36,180 bases of DNA from an uncultured Oscillospiraceae bacterium (lineage in GTDB: Bacteria > Bacillota > Clostridia > Oscillospirales > Oscillospiraceae), in NCBI GenBank assembly GCA_947624585.1, contig CANQKZ010000013.1:1-36180 (forward strand), written 5' to 3'. A program made the position numbers and the translations under genes. The notes under the pieces are model-generated. The model saw nothing but the letters and a program-made list of their open reading frames with translations, ran no database searches and was not told where the DNA came from. Below, one piece after another: positions 4,842 through 21,722 of the stretch; within the stretch, counting starts at the first letter, position 1; each line of letters begins with the position of its first letter.

Positions 4842-5129
4842 CAATAGAAAAAGGCTGTGATGGGAACAAAGGCGTTCGCAGTAGATTTCAGAGAGCCGCT
4901 GTCCGGTGCAAAGCGGTATCGGGCGTCCGCCGGTCTCCTCCCTGAGCCGTAACCTGAAAGCCCGCGGGCAAGTAGGGGACACCGGGTTCTCCCGTTACAG
5001 AGAGGCCGCGTTGACAGACGCGGGGTGAGTGGGCGCTCCAAGCGCCAAGAAGAGTGGTACCGCGGAAGCTTCTTTCGTCTCTTTATCCTAAAATATTTTG
5101 TGTATTTTGGGTAAAAAGAGGCTTTTTTT
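4842..5129 (+). promoter_or_regulatory. T-box leader, leucine-type, upstream of leuA
   Basis: T-box leaders sense uncharged tRNA and allow read-through when it is abundant. The diagnostic T-box (AGAGTGGTACCGCGG, 5051-5065) is present. Its TGGT bulge would pair with a tRNA ending in ACCA, which means discriminator base A, as in tRNA-Leu. Stem I features include the AGAGAG-type run and the GGTGCAAAGC segment near 4893-4912. The 3' side of the presumed specifier loop reads GGTCTCCTCCCTGAG, with two adjacent CTC triplets (4935-4940), a leucine codon. Specifier assignment is inference from position and from the leuA context. The leader ends in a terminator hairpin that can compete with the antiterminator. 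Confidence 0.9.
5079..5129 (+). terminator. T-box attenuator terminator
   Basis: CTCTTTATCC (5079-5088) can pair with GGGTAAAAAGAG (5109-5120), followed by GC and seven T (5123-5129). The 5' arm overlaps the 3' strand of the antiterminator (GTCTCTT with AAGAG of the T-box), giving the mutually exclusive fold expected of a T-box. It ends 29 nt before leuA. Confidence 0.82.
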
Positions 5130-11933: not shown

Positions 11934-12324
11934 TTCCCCCCTTGTGGGGAATGTGGGTTTACTTTCTTCTCTTTTGCGGTGACAAAAGAGAAGAAAGTAA
12001 CAAAGAAGAGAAAATCATGTTTTGGGGGTCGGCGGTGACTTTTGGGTGGGCGCTTCGTAACGCGGGGCGGCTTCCGCGTTCCGTGTCTGTACGTCTGGGT
12101 GGAACCATAGCCGCGCGGGCCTTGGTCTAATAGGTTGGAGCATCAACTTCGCTTGGCCGCTTACGTTGGCGGTGGTCAGGGGTTTGGTATCTCTGTTTTG
12201 GGCCGCGCTTGGTGGGCGGTTGTTGTGGAGCCCGTTTGGGAGTGGGAGGTCATCTGGGGGCGTACGTCGCTCTTTTTAAAAAGGGTTTTCAAAATATTTT
12301 TCCTTCGGAAATTCATTTTGAAAA
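11934..12324 (+). repeat. Hairpin-bounded repeat, copy A (type-a end, plus orientation)
   Basis: First copy of a family seen seven times in this window. In order it has four parts. The outer stem is TTCCCC with GGGGAA (11934-11951). The type-a hairpin is a perfect 18-bp stem (TTACTTTCTTCTCTTTTG, 11959-11976, loop CGGTGA, complement to 12000), followed by a partial third arm (AACAAAGAAGAGAAAA). A GC-rich core (about 12030-12280) includes AACGCGG pairing with CCGCGTT. The 39-bp inner hairpin (12286-12324) has TTTTCAAAAT and ATTTTGAAAA as outer stem, with TTTCC/GGAAA inside. No consistent reading frame is shared with the other copies. Confidence 0.9.
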
Positions 12325-12555
12325 GATTTGGGGGCGGTCCACTTCCCCTTCATTTCACAAATCTCCCGCTTAATTTCAAGAAAATTTCCTTAATTTCAAA
12401 CGAAATTCCTTAATTTCAAAGAATTTTCCTTAATTTCAAAGCCCCCCAAACCCCGAAACCCTTGCGGCGCAAGGAGTTTGCCCTTAATTTCAAAATTTCA
12501 CCCGTTTTTGGCCTTTTAAAACGGTTACAACTTTGTAACCATTCCAAATTCAGCC
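12325..12555 (+). repeat. 20-bp iteron-like array attached to copy A
   Basis: CTTAATTTCAA starts at 12369, 12389, 12409 and 12429, exactly 20 bp apart, with a fifth at 12483. The array is followed by a small palindrome (CTTGCG, G, CGCAAG) and ends at another (GGTTACAA, CT, TTGTAACC, 12524-12541). An inverted copy of the whole module is attached to copy D. There are no unique spacers, so it is not a CRISPR array. Together with copies A and B this accounts for the gene-free gap 11916-13085. Confidence 0.88.
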
Positions 12556-12559
12556 ATAA

Positions 12560-13048
12560 CCCAATGCGATGCCCCCAAGATGACATCCATCCCCAAACAG
12601 AACCATCCACCGTCCCCACCACCGAAAGCACCACAAAGCGCAACCCAAAACAGAACCACCCACCTACCGTCCCCACCAGGGTAAGCGCCCACCAAGCGCG
12701 GCCCAAAACAGAACCACCCACCTACCGTTCCAACCACCGAAAGCGCCCACGCAGCGCGGCCCAAAACAGAGCCACCCACCTATCAACAACCTCCTCCGTA
12801 AGCGGCCAAGCGAAGTTGAAGCAGAAACCAATTAAGTCTTCGTCCCGCGCGGCTATGGTTCCACCCAGACGCACCGACCCGGAACGCGGAAGCCGACCCG
12901 CGTTACGCAGCGCCAACCCCGGACCACCGCCGACCCCAACACCGCCCTTTTCTCTCTTTTGCTTCTTTTCTCTCTTTTGTGCAGTGGGCAAAAGGCCCAC
13001 GGAACAAAAGAGAGAAAAGAAGACCTCCCCTCCGGCAATTCCGCCGGA
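12560..13048 (-). repeat. Hairpin-bounded repeat, copy B (type-b end, minus orientation) with 58-bp tandem units
   Basis: This is an inverted copy facing copy A. The type-b hairpin is a 19-bp stem (12962-12980 with ACAAAAGAGAGAAAAGAAG at 13004-13022). A nested GTGGGC/GCCCAC stem sits in its loop, and a third arm of the same sequence lies at 12947-12960. The outer stem TCCGGC/GCCGGA is at 13031-13048. On the inner side a segment is tandemly repeated: CAGAACCA-type starts fall at 12598, 12651, 12709 and 12767 (spacing 53, 58, 58). The 39-bp inner hairpin is missing, so this copy is expanded and truncated. Confidence 0.87.
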
Positions 13049-14875: not shown

Positions 14876-15270
14876 CCCTTCCCGGACGGAGGGGGTGGGT
14901 TTACTTTCTTCTCTTTTGCGGTGACAAAAGAGAAGAAAGTAACAAAGAAGAGAAAATCATGTTTTTGAGGGGTCGGTGGGAACTTTTGACCTGGCGCTTC
15001 GTAACGCGGGTCGGCTTCCGCGTTCCGTGTCTGTACGTCTGGGAGGAACCATAGCCGCGCGGGCCTTGGTCTAATAGGTCGGAGCATCAGCTTCGCTTGG
15101 CCGCTTACGTTGGCGGTGGTCGGTAGGTGGGTATCTCTGTTTTGGGCCGCGCTTTGTGGGCGGTCGTTGTGAGGCCCGTTCTGGAGGTGCGGAGGTCAAC
15201 GGTCGTACGTCGCACGGGTTAACAAGGTATTTTCAAAATTGTTTGCCTTTGGCAAATGCATTTTCAAAAT
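14876..15270 (+). repeat. Hairpin-bounded repeat, copy C (type-a end, plus orientation)
   Basis: The outer stem is CCCTTCC with GGAGGGG (14876-14894). The perfect 18-bp type-a hairpin runs 14901-14942, followed by a core closely matching copy A, including the conserved stretch ending TAGCCGCGCGGGCC. The inner hairpin (15230-15270) has a TTTGCC/GGCAAA stem in place of TTTCC/GGAAA. A TATAAT at 15270-15275 at its inner edge could act as a -10 for the small gene that follows, but the -35 is poor. Confidence 0.88.
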
Positions 15271-15317
15271 ATAATTGCGCGGCTTGCTGATAAATCAGGA
15301 TTTGTGGAGGTAAAGAT

Positions 15318-15563
15318 ATGAACAAAGTTTGGCAGTATTTTTTGTTGGGTATTGTAGTGGCTATTGGTGGATTGTTTGTAACTAATTTTATAGCGAGTAT
15401 TCTCAATATGATTATGGATTACGGAACTGCATATGTTATTAGCATTTGCATGTATCTTAGTGTTGTTGTTGTGACCTGTACGGGAATCATAGTCATTAAA
15501 CTGGACAAAATCACGCATTTGGATAGAGAAAGTGGCAAACAAAGTAACGAGCAAAGCGAGTGA
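15318..15563 (+). CDS. Small two-helix membrane protein, AT-rich, unknown
   Basis: I do not recognise this 81-residue protein. The ATG at 15318 has GTGGAGG about 8 nt upstream, a good ribosome site. Two hydrophobic segments (about residues 7-31 and 38-62) are followed by a charged, polar tail (KLDKITHLDRESGKQSNEQSE), consistent with a hairpin membrane protein. Its DNA is visibly AT-rich and uses codons such as TTG, ATT, GTA and TTA that the neighbouring operon genes avoid. This suggests separate origin. It lies between the inner hairpins of repeat copies C and C', as if carried as cargo. No terminator or partner gene is obvious. Confidence 0.7.
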   Translation: MNKVWQYFLLGIVVAIGGLFVTNFIASILNMIMDYGTAYVISICMYLSVVVVTCTGIIVIKLDKITHLDRESGKQSNEQSE

Positions 15564-15587
15564 TAAAATTCCCGTTTATGAAAAAAG

Positions 15588-15714
15588 ATTTCAAAATGCA
15601 TTTGCTAACGACAAACAATTTTGAAAAACCTCTTTAACCCTGCGACGCACAACCCCCGGACAACCCACGCACCCCCAACACTGGCCGCCCCTCCTCGCGG
15701 CAACGGGACCTCAC
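15588..15714 (-). repeat. Truncated repeat copy C' (inner end only, minus orientation)
   Basis: An inverted counterpart of the inner end of copy C. The hairpin at 15588-15627 uses ATTTTGAAAA and TTTGTC/AGCAAA-type pairing. It is followed by the core's inner edge (GCGACGCAC) and then degraded core. It lacks the type-a/b hairpin. Copies C and C' together flank the small membrane gene with inverted repeats. Confidence 0.7.
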
Positions 15715-15945
15715 GCGCTGATTTAGAATAGTTACAAACCTGTAACCATTTTAAACGCCCCAAAACGGGTGAAATTTTGAAATTAAGGGCAAACCCCTTG
15801 CGGCGCAAGGGTTTCCGGGTTTGGGGGGCTTTGAAATTAAGGAGAATTCTTTGAAATTAAGGAAAATTCTTTGAAATTAAGGAAATTTTCTTGAAATTAA
15901 GCGGGAGATTTGTGAAATGAAGGGGGAGTGGACCGCCCCCAAACC
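15715..15945 (-). repeat. 20-bp iteron-like array attached to copy D (inverted relative to 12325-12555)
   Basis: TTGAAATTAAG occurs at 15831, 15851, 15871 and 15891 (20-bp period), with one more at 15778. The CTTGCG/CGCAAG palindrome and the GTTACA/TGTAAC palindrome (15731-15747) are in the mirror order of the copy A module. Confidence 0.88.
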
Positions 15946-16350
15946 TTTTCAAAATGAATTTCCGCAGGAAAGATATTTTGAAAACCCTTTTTTAAAAGAG
16001 CGACGCACACCATTAGATGACCTCCCACTTCCAAACGGGCACCACAACAACCGCCCACCCAGCGCGGCCCCAAACAGAGCCACCCACCTATCGACCACCT
16101 CCAGCGTAAGCGGCCAAGCGAAAGTGATGCTGAGCGTATTAAGTCTCAGGACCGCGCGGCTATGGTTCCGCCCAGGCCCCGGACACACACCGCGTGAGCC
16201 GACCCGAGATACACGGTAGGAGACTTCGTCTCCCGCCAACCCCCAACACCGGCCTTTTCTCTCTTTTGCTTCTTTTCTCTCTTTTGTGCAGTGGGCACAC
16301 CGCCCACGGAACAAAAGAGAGAAAAGAAGACCCCCCGTCCCCTCGGACGG
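15946..16350 (-). repeat. Hairpin-bounded repeat, copy D (type-b end, minus orientation)
   Basis: The 39-bp inner hairpin is at 15946-15984 (TTTCC, GCA, GGAAA). The GC-rich core runs to about 16250. The type-b hairpin has its 19-bp stem at 16269-16287 and 16311-16329, with GTGGGC/GCCCAC nested. The outer stem CCGTCC/GGACGG is at 16335-16350. It ends 56 nt before the leuB start. With C, the small gene, C' and the array it fills the gap 14843-16406. Confidence 0.9.
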
Positions 16351-19927: not shown

Positions 19928-20302
19928 ATGAGCAAAACCATCCACACCGACACCGCCCCCGCCGCCATCGGGCCCTATTCCCAGGCCGTGGTCACGGGGA
20001 ACCTGGTCTTCACCTCCGGTCAGATCCCCATCGACCCCGCCACAGGGAACGTGGAGGCCGACGGCATCGAGGCGCAGAGCGAACAGGTGATGAAAAACCT
20101 GGGCGAGGTGTTGCGCGCCGCCGGGAGCGATTACGGGAAGGCCATTAAGACCACCTGCTACCTTGCCCACATGGCGGATTTCGCCGCCTTCAACGGGGTG
20201 TACGGGAGGTATTTTACGTCCAGGCCCGCCAGGAGCTGCGTGGCGGTGAAGGATCTGCCCAAAGGGGTGCTGGTCGAGGTCGAAGTTGTAGCTGAGATTT
20301 GA
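19928..20302 (+). CDS. ridA: RidA family 2-iminobutanoate/2-iminopropanoate deaminase
   Basis: RidA hydrolyses the reactive enamine/imine released by threonine dehydratase and so protects PLP enzymes. The 124 residues carry the usual signature: APAAIGPYSQAV (about 11-22), FTSGQIPIDPATG (about 31-43), and RSCVAVKDLPKGVLVEVEVVA, whose Arg and Glu form the active site. AAGSDYGKAIKTTCYL is also typical. It starts 12 nt after ilvA with an ideal AAGGAGG site. The pairing with ilvA makes functional sense. It is followed by a terminator, so it is the last gene of the operon. Confidence 0.96.
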   Translation: MSKTIHTDTAPAAIGPYSQAVVTGNLVFTSGQIPIDPATGNVEADGIEAQSEQVMKNLGEVLRAAGSDYGKAIKTTCYLAHMADFAAFNGVYGRYFTSRPARSCVAVKDLPKGVLVEVEVVAEI

Positions 20303-20354: not shown

Positions 20355-20764
20355 TCCGGCAGAGGTGCCGGAGGGGGGTCTTCTTTTCTCTCTTTTGTTC
20401 CGTGGGCTTTTTGCCCACTGCACAAAAGAGAGAAAAGAAGCAAAAGAGAGAAAAGGCCGGTGTTGGGGTCGGCGGTGGTCCGGGGTTGGAGCTTCGTAAC
20501 GCGGGTCGGCTTCCGCGTGCCGTGTCGTGGGTCTGGGTGGAACCATAGCCGCGCGGGCCGAAGACTTAATTGGTTGGAGCATCAGCTTCGCTTGGCCGCT
20601 TACGTTGGCGGTTGTTGGTAGGTGGGTGGCTCTGTTTTGGGCCGCGCTTTGTGGGTGGGGGTTGTGGGGCCCGTTCTGGGGCGTGTCTGTTGTCCGGGGC
20701 TGTACGTCGCACTGTTAAAAATGGATTTTCAAAATATCTTTCCGTTGGAAATTCATTTTGAAAA
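20355..20764 (+). repeat. Hairpin-bounded repeat, copy E (type-b end, plus orientation)
   Basis: The outer stem TCCGGC/GCCGGA is at 20355-20372, followed by GGGGGGT. The type-b hairpin has a 19-bp stem (20380-20398 with 20422-20440), GTGGGC/GCCCAC nested in the loop, and a directly repeated third arm (CAAAAGAGAGAAAAGG, 20441-20456). The GC-rich core is closely similar to the others. The 39-bp inner hairpin is at 20726-20764 (loop GTT). This is the best preserved type-b copy. Confidence 0.9.
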
Positions 20765-20836
20765 TTATTTTATTGCGTTCTGTCCTCTGCCTTACAAAAT
20801 AATATCCGCCGTCCGTAAAAACAGCGGGAAAATGTA

Positions 20837-20865
20837 TTGACTTTTTGAGTCCGGGAGCATATAAT
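20837..20865 (+). promoter_or_regulatory. Promoter of the antisense RNA
   Basis: TTGACT (20837-20842), 17 nt, TATAAT (20860-20865). This is a near-consensus sigma-A promoter. No reading frame with a ribosome site follows before the terminator at 20952-20991. Confidence 0.85.
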
Positions 20866-20871
20866 AAAAGT

Positions 20872-20990
20872 GTGGAAGGCCGCAGAACGCTTGGCACCAC
20901 TTACATAGGGTTCACAATCTTAGCTCGGGGTCCCAGCCCCAAAACCAAGGCGTGAGCCGTCTGTTCGTTGCAGACGGCTCACTTTTTCTT
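20872..20990 (+). ncRNA. Candidate antitoxin-like antisense RNA, about 115-120 nt
   Basis: The interval runs from the predicted start after the 20860 TATAAT to a strong terminator: a perfect 12-bp stem GTGAGCCGTCTG (20952-20963) and CAGACGGCTCAC (20971-20982), then TTTTTCTTT. It also contains GGGGTCCCAGCCCC, a short internal hairpin. The terminator stem and T-run are complementary to the last codons (Ile-Lys-Lys-Lys), the stop codon and the 3' region of the small hydrophobic peptide gene on the other strand. Convergent 3' overlap with a short membrane peptide is the layout of Gram-positive type I toxin-antitoxin pairs such as txpA/RatA. I did not recognise it as a known RNA family. Confidence 0.72.
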
Positions 20991-21074
20991 TATCGTTATG
21001 TACAGCGCGTACACGGACACGATCAGCCCCAGTATACTGCATATGCTGCCAATCACGGAAAGAACAGTGACTAT
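20979..21074 (-). CDS. Candidate type I toxin-like hydrophobic peptide, about 31 aa (start codon ATA)
   Basis: The peptide (I/M)VTVLSVIGSICSILG... ends YALYITIKKK. It is one strongly hydrophobic helix with a Lys tail, like small membrane toxins of type I systems. An excellent ribosome site (GGGGAGG, 21089-21083) is followed, 8 nt later, by ATA (21074-21072), where an ATG would be expected. The only other nearby in-frame start is a GTG (21083) overlapping the ribosome site. The ATG at 21203 gives a 74-residue frame with an unnatural Arg/Pro-rich N-terminus and is rejected. A consensus promoter lies at 21288-21316, giving a long structured 5' leader of about 190-200 nt. It may be a decayed toxin with its start lost, or use a rare start. 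Confidence 0.55.
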   Translation of the reverse strand: MVTVLSVIGSICSILGLIVSVYALYITIKKK

Positions 21075-21287
21075 GTATCTCACCTCCCCGGGCGTATTTC
21101 CCGCGAAAGCAAAACACTCGCCTCCTCGTCGTCGCGGAACCCGCTTTACCTCGCCCTCCCTCCGGTCGGGCTCAGGCGCTGGGTTCGCTCCTCCTCTCCC
21201 CACAAAATCTCCAATTTTGCGGGGACCCCGTGAGGGATGTCAGGCACCGTCAGCGTACCGCAAATTGCGTCGGACTTCTACACATTT

Positions 21288-21316
21288 ATTATACATCCAG
21301 GCCACTTTCCTGTCAA
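21288..21316 (-). promoter_or_regulatory. Consensus promoter of the small hydrophobic peptide gene
   Basis: On the minus strand TTGACA (21316-21311), exactly 17 nt, TATAAT (21293-21288). A perfect sigma-A match, 10 bp inside the inner hairpin of repeat copy F. The leader downstream contains CCCCGCAAAAT pairing with ATTTTGTGGGG (about 21201-21227), which could influence translation. Confidence 0.88.
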
Positions 21317-21325
21317 TTCCGAATT

Positions 21326-21722
21326 TTTTCAAAATGAATTTCCAAAGGAAAGATATTTTGAAAATCCTTATTGATACGAGCGACGTGAAACCCCGGACAA
21401 CATACACGCCCCAGAACGGGCCCCACAACCCCCGCCACCGCAGCGCGGCCCCGAACAGAGCCACCCACCTACCGACCCCCACCAACGTAAGCGGCCAAGC
21501 GAAGCTGATGCTCCAACGTATTAGACCAAGGCCCGCGCGGATATGGTTCCTCCCAGACGTATCGACACGGGACGCGGAAGCCGACCCGCGTTACGAAGCG
21601 CCGGGCCAAAAGTCACCGCCGACCCCCCAAGAAGCTGATTTTCTCTTCTTTGTTACTTTCTTCTCTTTTGTCACCGCAAAAGAGAAGAAAGTAAATTAAC
21701 CCCCCGCCCGTTGCACGGACGG
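21326..21722 (-). repeat. Hairpin-bounded repeat, copy F (type-a end, minus orientation)
   Basis: The 39-bp inner hairpin is at 21326-21364 (loop AAA). The core then reads the reverse of copy C. The perfect 18-bp type-a hairpin is at 21653-21694 (loop TCACCG), and the outer stem CCGCCCGT/ACGGACGG (one mismatch) is at 21704-21722. The outer stem ends 2 bp before the glpK stop codon. Copies E and F enclose the toxin-like cargo in the gap 20303-21724. Confidence 0.9.

Follow-up and report, generated by a model that had tools for sequence, protein, structure and literature searches.

A gene for a small hydrophobic peptide and a convergent antisense RNA form a real family in the genus of this uncultured Oscillospiraceae bacterium, and the locus described here is likely to be a type I toxin-antitoxin-like module that acts as proposed, by RNA-mediated silencing with copies that remain orthogonal. 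The RNA probably silences the peptide gene, and most copies of that gene seem to begin with AUA or AUC. Where one genome has near-identical copies, the differences between them fall mainly in the linker and loops of the RNA, as though a separate recognition code served each pair. By architecture, we file the family as an unreported variant of the type I toxin-antitoxin kind, with putative functional membership.

Results

Organization of the locus

The window, the whole 36,180-nt stretch of DNA that was analysed, is contig C13 of a draft genome of 3.28 Mb in 290 contigs. The module sits between two inverted repeat arms of ~330 bp, flanked by open reading frames at 19928-20302 (+) and 23209-21725 (-). 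On the plus strand, a consensus promoter (TTGACT-17-TATAAT, 20837-20865, 11/12 consensus matches) is followed by a predicted RNA of ~118 nt (20870-20990) with a strong terminator at 20952-20991, namely a 12-pair stem (GTGAGCCGTCTG/CAGACGGCTCAC, 20952-20982) and then TTTTTCTTT. On the minus strand, a perfect promoter (TTGACA-17-TATAAT, 21316-21288, 12/12) precedes a leader of ~200 nt, the Shine-Dalgarno (SD) site GGAGG at 21087-21083 and a frame that reads ...YITIKKK-stop and ends at 20979. An earlier sequence-only reading had described two convergent near-perfect promoters and an RNA of roughly 117 nt with a strong terminator. The promoters were confirmed, with five promoter-like sites in a 2.5-kb scan against a mean of 0.6 in shuffled sequence, and the terminated RNA is borne out by the sequence. 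The fold of the RNA exceeds chance (z -3.9 versus shuffles), and the RNA model R1 matches 20869-20987 with 97.6 bits, the window's copy being itself among those from which the model was built.

Comparison of copies divides this RNA into constant and variable parts. A hypervariable linker at 20900-20925, the putative recognition sequence, includes 21 nt that match only themselves in the genome at three or fewer mismatches. It is followed by the stem-loop CGGGG[TCCCAG]CCCC at 20926-20940, with a variable loop at 20931-20936, and by the terminator hairpin, whose own variable loop lies at 20964-20970. The terminator T-run was also said to be complementary to the last Lys codons of the peptide gene, and three Lys codons (20990-20982) and a TGA stop (20981-20979) indeed lie opposite it. 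The peptide reaches a hydropathy of 2.46 over 19 residues and ends in KKK, and thus has the small size, hydrophobicity and charged C-terminus of type I toxins. The other hallmark of the class, an antisense RNA that has its own promoter and overlaps the toxin transcript, is present as judged from the promoters and terminators in the sequence alone.

Conservation within the genus

The window's genome holds the peptide at six places (C13, C14, C23, C118, C15 and a broken copy in C11), the first four of which were found by a search with the single peptide. Across the genus, it occurs in 13 of 34 genomes at 30 places, 29 of them intact. A match to the convergent RNA lies beside all 29 intact peptides, at 82 bits or more in 27, although the RNA models were built from such copies and the scores are partly so by construction. 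The two weaker matches are G018:C56 (67.1 bits) and G032:C72 (36.9 bits, near a contig end and lacking TATAAT). Conversely, 27 of the 30 RNA matches of at least 82 bits adjoin an intact peptide, the exceptions being C11, G015:C7 and the first RNA of G031:C21. The antitoxin -35 element reads TTGAC[A/T] in 27 of the 28 copies kept from the genus genomes, for which TATAAT was required. Of 30 toxin promoters, 28 are perfect (12/12) and one has 11/12, while that of the broken C11 copy is degenerate; together with the SD site, the promoter is found in all 29 intact copies. The peptide frame shows a clear coding signal, with 32, 12 and 67 changes at codon positions 1, 2 and 3, respectively, among 23 copies of four peptide groups. 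The sequence-only reading had made its case depend on a frame conserved in related loci, and it withstood this comparison, given the 29 intact copies in 13 genomes and the excess of third-position changes.

Start codon and leader of the peptide mRNA

The length of 31 residues claimed for the peptide holds if translation starts at AUA 21074-21072, giving a gene at 20979-21074 (-), and gives way to 34 residues if a GTG three codons upstream is used. Relatives favor AUA or an equivalent AUN codon. In the 29 intact copies, the codon 7-9 nt past the SD site is AUA in 11, AUC in 15 and AUG in 3 (the SD site at 21083-21087 lies 8 nt ahead of the AUA in the window). More distant relatives, inspected by eye, have in the same place AUU (L132, L134, L147), AUA (L123), AUC (L115, L135, L138) or AUG (L119), and the L118 and L114 types have an ATG ~10 nt and L139 an ATG ~12 nt past the SD. 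An in-frame GTG lies just upstream in 10 of 11 group A copies, and an in-frame ATG in 6 of 7 B1 copies. The GTG is missing from G022_C10 and the ATG from G022_C8, and the eight B2 copies offer only a CTG that touches the SD, which favors AUN initiation without proving it, given the GTG and ATG codons kept in most A and B1 copies. The conserved upstream motif (G/A)TACAT is read in different frames in group A (TAC|ATA) and group B (CAT|ATC), and is therefore probably leader.

Published work, cited here from parts of the sources, bears on such starts. Non-AUG starts have been described in general as a brake on type I toxins (PMC8167048, in extract). In Staphylococcus aureus, translation from AUA or AUU reaches about 10-30% of the AUG level when the SD site is extended (PMC13009471, in extract). 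In Helicobacter pylori, changing the aapA3 start to ATT nearly removed the mRNA from polysomes (PMC6733600, in extract), so AUA and AUC starts might simply be poor.

The SD site is also predicted to be folded. A hairpin at 21075-21117 (-) pairs it and extends up to the base preceding the AUA; in the window copy, to which the shuffle comparison applies, it has a z of -4.6 and no shuffle folds equally well. A nested hairpin spans the SD in all 22 distinct copies folded, with mean SD-base pairing of 0.66-1.00 in 14 and of 0.33-0.58 in eight (seven B1 copies and G018_C56). RNAalifold favored an alternative leader helix incompatible with the SD hairpin, in which both sides are changed in 4 of 11 pairs. 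An element further upstream in the leader is able to pair with the strand that the SD hairpin uses; the SD would then be released, and the alternative helix may possibly act as a switch.

The long structured leader reported earlier is structured beyond chance, as the SD hairpin attests, but its length is partly that of an inserted dispersed repeat (approximately 21123-21230). This repeat has many partial copies genome-wide, is present in the leaders of C13 and C14 and absent from those of C23 and C118, and related stretches occur near modules of other genomes. Leader length was thus rejected as a family trait.

At its other end, past the antitoxin promoter, the peptide mRNA has a probable terminator hairpin at 20806-20827 (-), with a z of -3.6 for the minus-strand hairpin at 20800-20830. 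On the toxin strand, 18 of 28 copies carry a terminator-like hairpin immediately ahead of the antitoxin -35, where mononucleotide shuffling predicts 0.32; in one of these copies (G031_C21), the hairpin is simply the complement of another RNA's own terminator. By the rule used, the hairpin is absent from the other 10, C23 and C118 included. If these hairpins end the mRNA, the RNA would be antisense to its entire 3' UTR.

Divergence of the linker and loops

Ten within-genome pairs of copies were compared, three of them non-independent pairs of one trio and one an identical pair. Differences number 58/224 positions in the linker, 39/131 in the loops, 32/175 in the promoter spacer, 12/228 in stem 1 plus spacer, 9/332 in the 5' hairpin and 2/240 in the terminator stem. 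Linker and loops together differ at 97/355 positions versus 20/1760 in the CDS plus leader. Tandem copies give the clearest examples: among the three units of L118, 6-7 of 17-18 linker positions and 3-6 of 14 loop positions vary, with just 2-4 differences in 176 positions of CDS plus leader. G018_C19 shows seven linker-plus-loop differences versus 0/176 in the CDS plus leader. The pattern has exceptions: a G020 pair has identical RNA, and the within-genome pair G018_C77_3369 and C19 shows no linker excess.

On balance, we lean towards the reading that recognition sequences have diversified. Its main rival is relaxed constraint plus homogenisation, whereby linker and loops drift unselected as unconstrained parts and the toxin halves stay similar through gene conversion or constraint; we hold this to be a substantial but lesser probability. 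The promoter spacer also diverges in older pairs, so age may account for some of what separates the linkers. The RNA outpaces the CDS between genomes too (25 of 30 pairs), as in G017 and G031_C7, whose linkers differ at 13/29 positions. Unselected change accounts less well for the L118 trio, in which the promoter spacer (0/17), 5' hairpin (0/32) and terminator stem (0/24) are unchanged while linker and loops differ, or for the identical linkers (0/25) of one cross-genome pair, G018_C23 and G011_C45. A plain comparison of RNA divergence within and between genomes gave no difference (p 0.50) in a run in which the promoter of one copy (L144, position 38) had been mis-read. With that copy dropped (54 of 55 copies), the ratio of RNA to CDS divergence had a median of 4.90 within genomes versus 2.36 between them (p 0.0025), a result to be treated as exploratory because the ratio was chosen after the null first run, and drawn from pairs that are not independent.

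Distribution and associated peptides

With a wider RNA model, matches came from 16 of 250 family genomes, representing 13 of the 106 genera sampled, and from 9 of 295 genomes drawn from the order, reaching four further families with a weakest E-value of 9e-7; these E-values are rough, and the matches are those of the RNA model. Such a patchy distribution is as expected for genes that come and go. Named records show this RNA design next to hydrophobic, K-tailed peptides that are quite unlike one another, e.g. MDILSAIANLCTIVEFLSSLIKYLIQKNDDKKK and DTLIALEIIQTLLAVASFVIELVSYLASKESK. A crude frame rule failed to pick out such a peptide beside the RNA in e.g. L117, L131, L141 and L156.

Several further occurrences were recorded. 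The shared hairpin was found in 48 stretches of the named collection, 35 of them from MAGs labelled 'Lapin', which we take to mean rabbit gut. Where the convergent peptide is absent or broken (L131 at ~475, L126 at ~1849, L109), the RNA is a candidate orphan antitoxin. A hairpin pattern search of viral contigs gave two stretches, one of which (L168, ~225, on a 5.4-kb IMG/VR contig) carries a related peptide frame together with the RNA and its promoter; phage and plasmid records yielded nothing in DNA or protein searches, each of the latter made with one peptide. At ~417 in L121, the RNA and a promoter-like site occur in a MAG named Candidatus Cacconaster, a genus that NCBI places in Bacteroidales, and this is either a mis-binned contig or a transfer.

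Toxicity of the peptide is itself inferred, and the peptides match no model above cut-off, which leaves room for a non-toxic membrane regulator whose amount is tuned by the antisense RNA. We consider this unlikely, since tandem copies, the patchy distribution (16/250 family genomes), layered repression and unrelated hydrophobic K-tailed peptides under one RNA scaffold all suit toxins better. It is very improbable that the plus-strand RNA works in trans, as an sRNA on other targets, and that the peptide frame is accidental: the RNAs that stand without an intact peptide (G015:C7, the first of G031:C21 and C11, plus L117, L141 and L156 by the crude rule) would suit this, but the codon-position bias, the SD and toxin promoter of all 29 intact copies, and a linker with no other near match in the genome speak against it.

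Relationship to the repeat arms

The left arm (copy E, 20370-20700, +) and the inverted right arm (copy F, 21391-21671, -) have palindromic inner ends at 20718-20765 and 21326-21367. Of 113 first-look candidates for the ~330-bp arms in the window's genome, 40 were scored, giving at least 40 long matches. Inverted pairs of arms enclose the module, other cargo or, in C3, nothing but a single palindrome. Similar arms with palindromic ends also lie at 11982-13033 and 14924-16336 of the window. An 81-aa hydrophobic ORF (15318-15563), present once in the genome and with no significant family match, lies between another inverted arm pair.

The sequence-only reading had suggested that a toxin-antitoxin pair helps to explain how the repeat element persists, and had called for a search for homologues that travel with the same repeats. 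Homologues of peptide and RNA were found, as the 29 intact copies show, but no arm appeared in the 72 module loci retrieved for other genomes (24 plus 48, overlapping sets with limited flanks). As the arms also surround varied cargo or none, the suggestion was not upheld, and dependence of the module on the large repeats was rejected; the module is wider than the arms. Four of the six copies in the window's genome lie between inverted arms and a fifth (C11) beside one arm, so the arms may be landing sites or local spreaders, possibly a non-autonomous mobile element or a landing pad. That the module is functionless, decaying cargo of such an element, as those placements and the broken C11 might suggest, is the least credible reading, given promoter, SD and frame intact at 29 of 30 peptide places in 13 genomes and arms unseen in the 72 loci fetched elsewhere.

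Discussion

Comparison with known systems

Consistent with the earlier statement that neither component was recognisable, no Pfam, NCBIfam or Rfam model matched the peptide or RNA above its cut-off, and neither PHROGs nor structure look-ups of the peptides gave a significant hit. The best score for Hol_Tox (PF16935, cut-off 23.3 bits) in the window's genome was 10.4 bits, at another place. Rfam found only a T-box in seven relative loci; a T-box leader also lies in the window at 4848-5085 (95.5 bits). Searches of open-licence literature, including on type I toxin-antitoxin systems in Oscillospiraceae, on AUA/AUU/AUC starts and on duplication and specificity, turned up no paper whose title or abstract describes the family.

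The txpA/RatA-type layout with a 3' overlap, proposed earlier, is supported by the sequence layout. Membership of that sequence family is not, as Pfam, NCBIfam, Rfam and PHROGs, which presumably hold TxpA or RatA models, showed no similarity. RatA is ~220 nt long, and the RNA here is about half that length, with no profile-library similarity. Like RatA of the Bacillus subtilis skin element, it is an antisense RNA with its own promoter and an overlap at the 3' ends (PMC3531473, in extract). The RatA-txpA overlap is ~120 nt and the toxin mRNA is destroyed with RNase III; txpA starts with AUG, whereas the 31-aa peptide here likely starts with AUA or AUC (same source, in extract).

The Clostridioides difficile modules (CD2517.1-RCd8, CD2907.1-RCd9 and others) are likewise clostridial, convergent in the best-studied cases and present in many copies per genome, and their toxins resemble the peptide, by description rather than by sequence, in a hydrophobic N-terminus and Lys-rich end; several lie in prophages or by CRISPR arrays, whereas the window's module lies between chromosomal genes and repeat arms (PMC6563280, in extract). 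Antitoxin action in these modules is mostly cognate-only, according to the same extract. The Escherichia coli zorO-orzO and zorP-orzP loci are also duplicated and distinguished by a short unpaired sRNA region, V1, but their genes are divergent and pair over ~18 nt in the 5' UTR (PMC3919570, in extract). H. pylori aapA/IsoA shares a toxin of similar size (30 aa), SD-sequestering alternative hairpins and an antisense duplex, and differs in that the antisense RNA lies opposite the small ORF itself and an ATT start served as the inactive control (PMC6733600, in extract).

Proposed mechanism

The layout, conservation, coding signal, SD hairpin and local divergence are shown by the sequence itself; transcription, the duplex, cleavage, toxicity and use of AUA are inferred, in the following sequence of events. 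A minus-strand mRNA starting near 21281 would encode a 31-residue, single-helix membrane peptide. With the SD folded in a hairpin and the weak AUA as the probable start, leaky translation would be low. The mRNA probably passes the stop codon, crosses the whole antisense gene and ends near 20806-20827, and the ~118-nt RNA would then be fully complementary to its 3' UTR and last codons. First contact would probably occur at the unpaired linker and the two loops and spread to a duplex, which would be cleaved before the peptide accumulates, as RNase III does in txpA/RatA. Copies in one cell would stay orthogonal because their linkers and loops differ.

Across the wider set of loci, we tentatively propose, while rating it below an even chance, a superfamily with one RNA scaffold, its 5' hairpin and terminator fixed, that has acquired unrelated toxins, mostly AUN-started, and whose ~25-nt linker plus loops have diversified into orthogonal codes. 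These codes might be likened to plasmid incompatibility groups, and AUA, AUC, AUU and sometimes AUG starts 7-9 nt past a strong SD might form a safety catch, an idea as tentative as the superfamily of which it is part.

Several natural paralogous pairs per clade, separated by few RNA differences, would permit direct tests of antisense specificity, and would also let the origin of new specificities after duplication be tested. If true, the regular use of AUA, AUC and AUU starts in a toxin family would be unusual.
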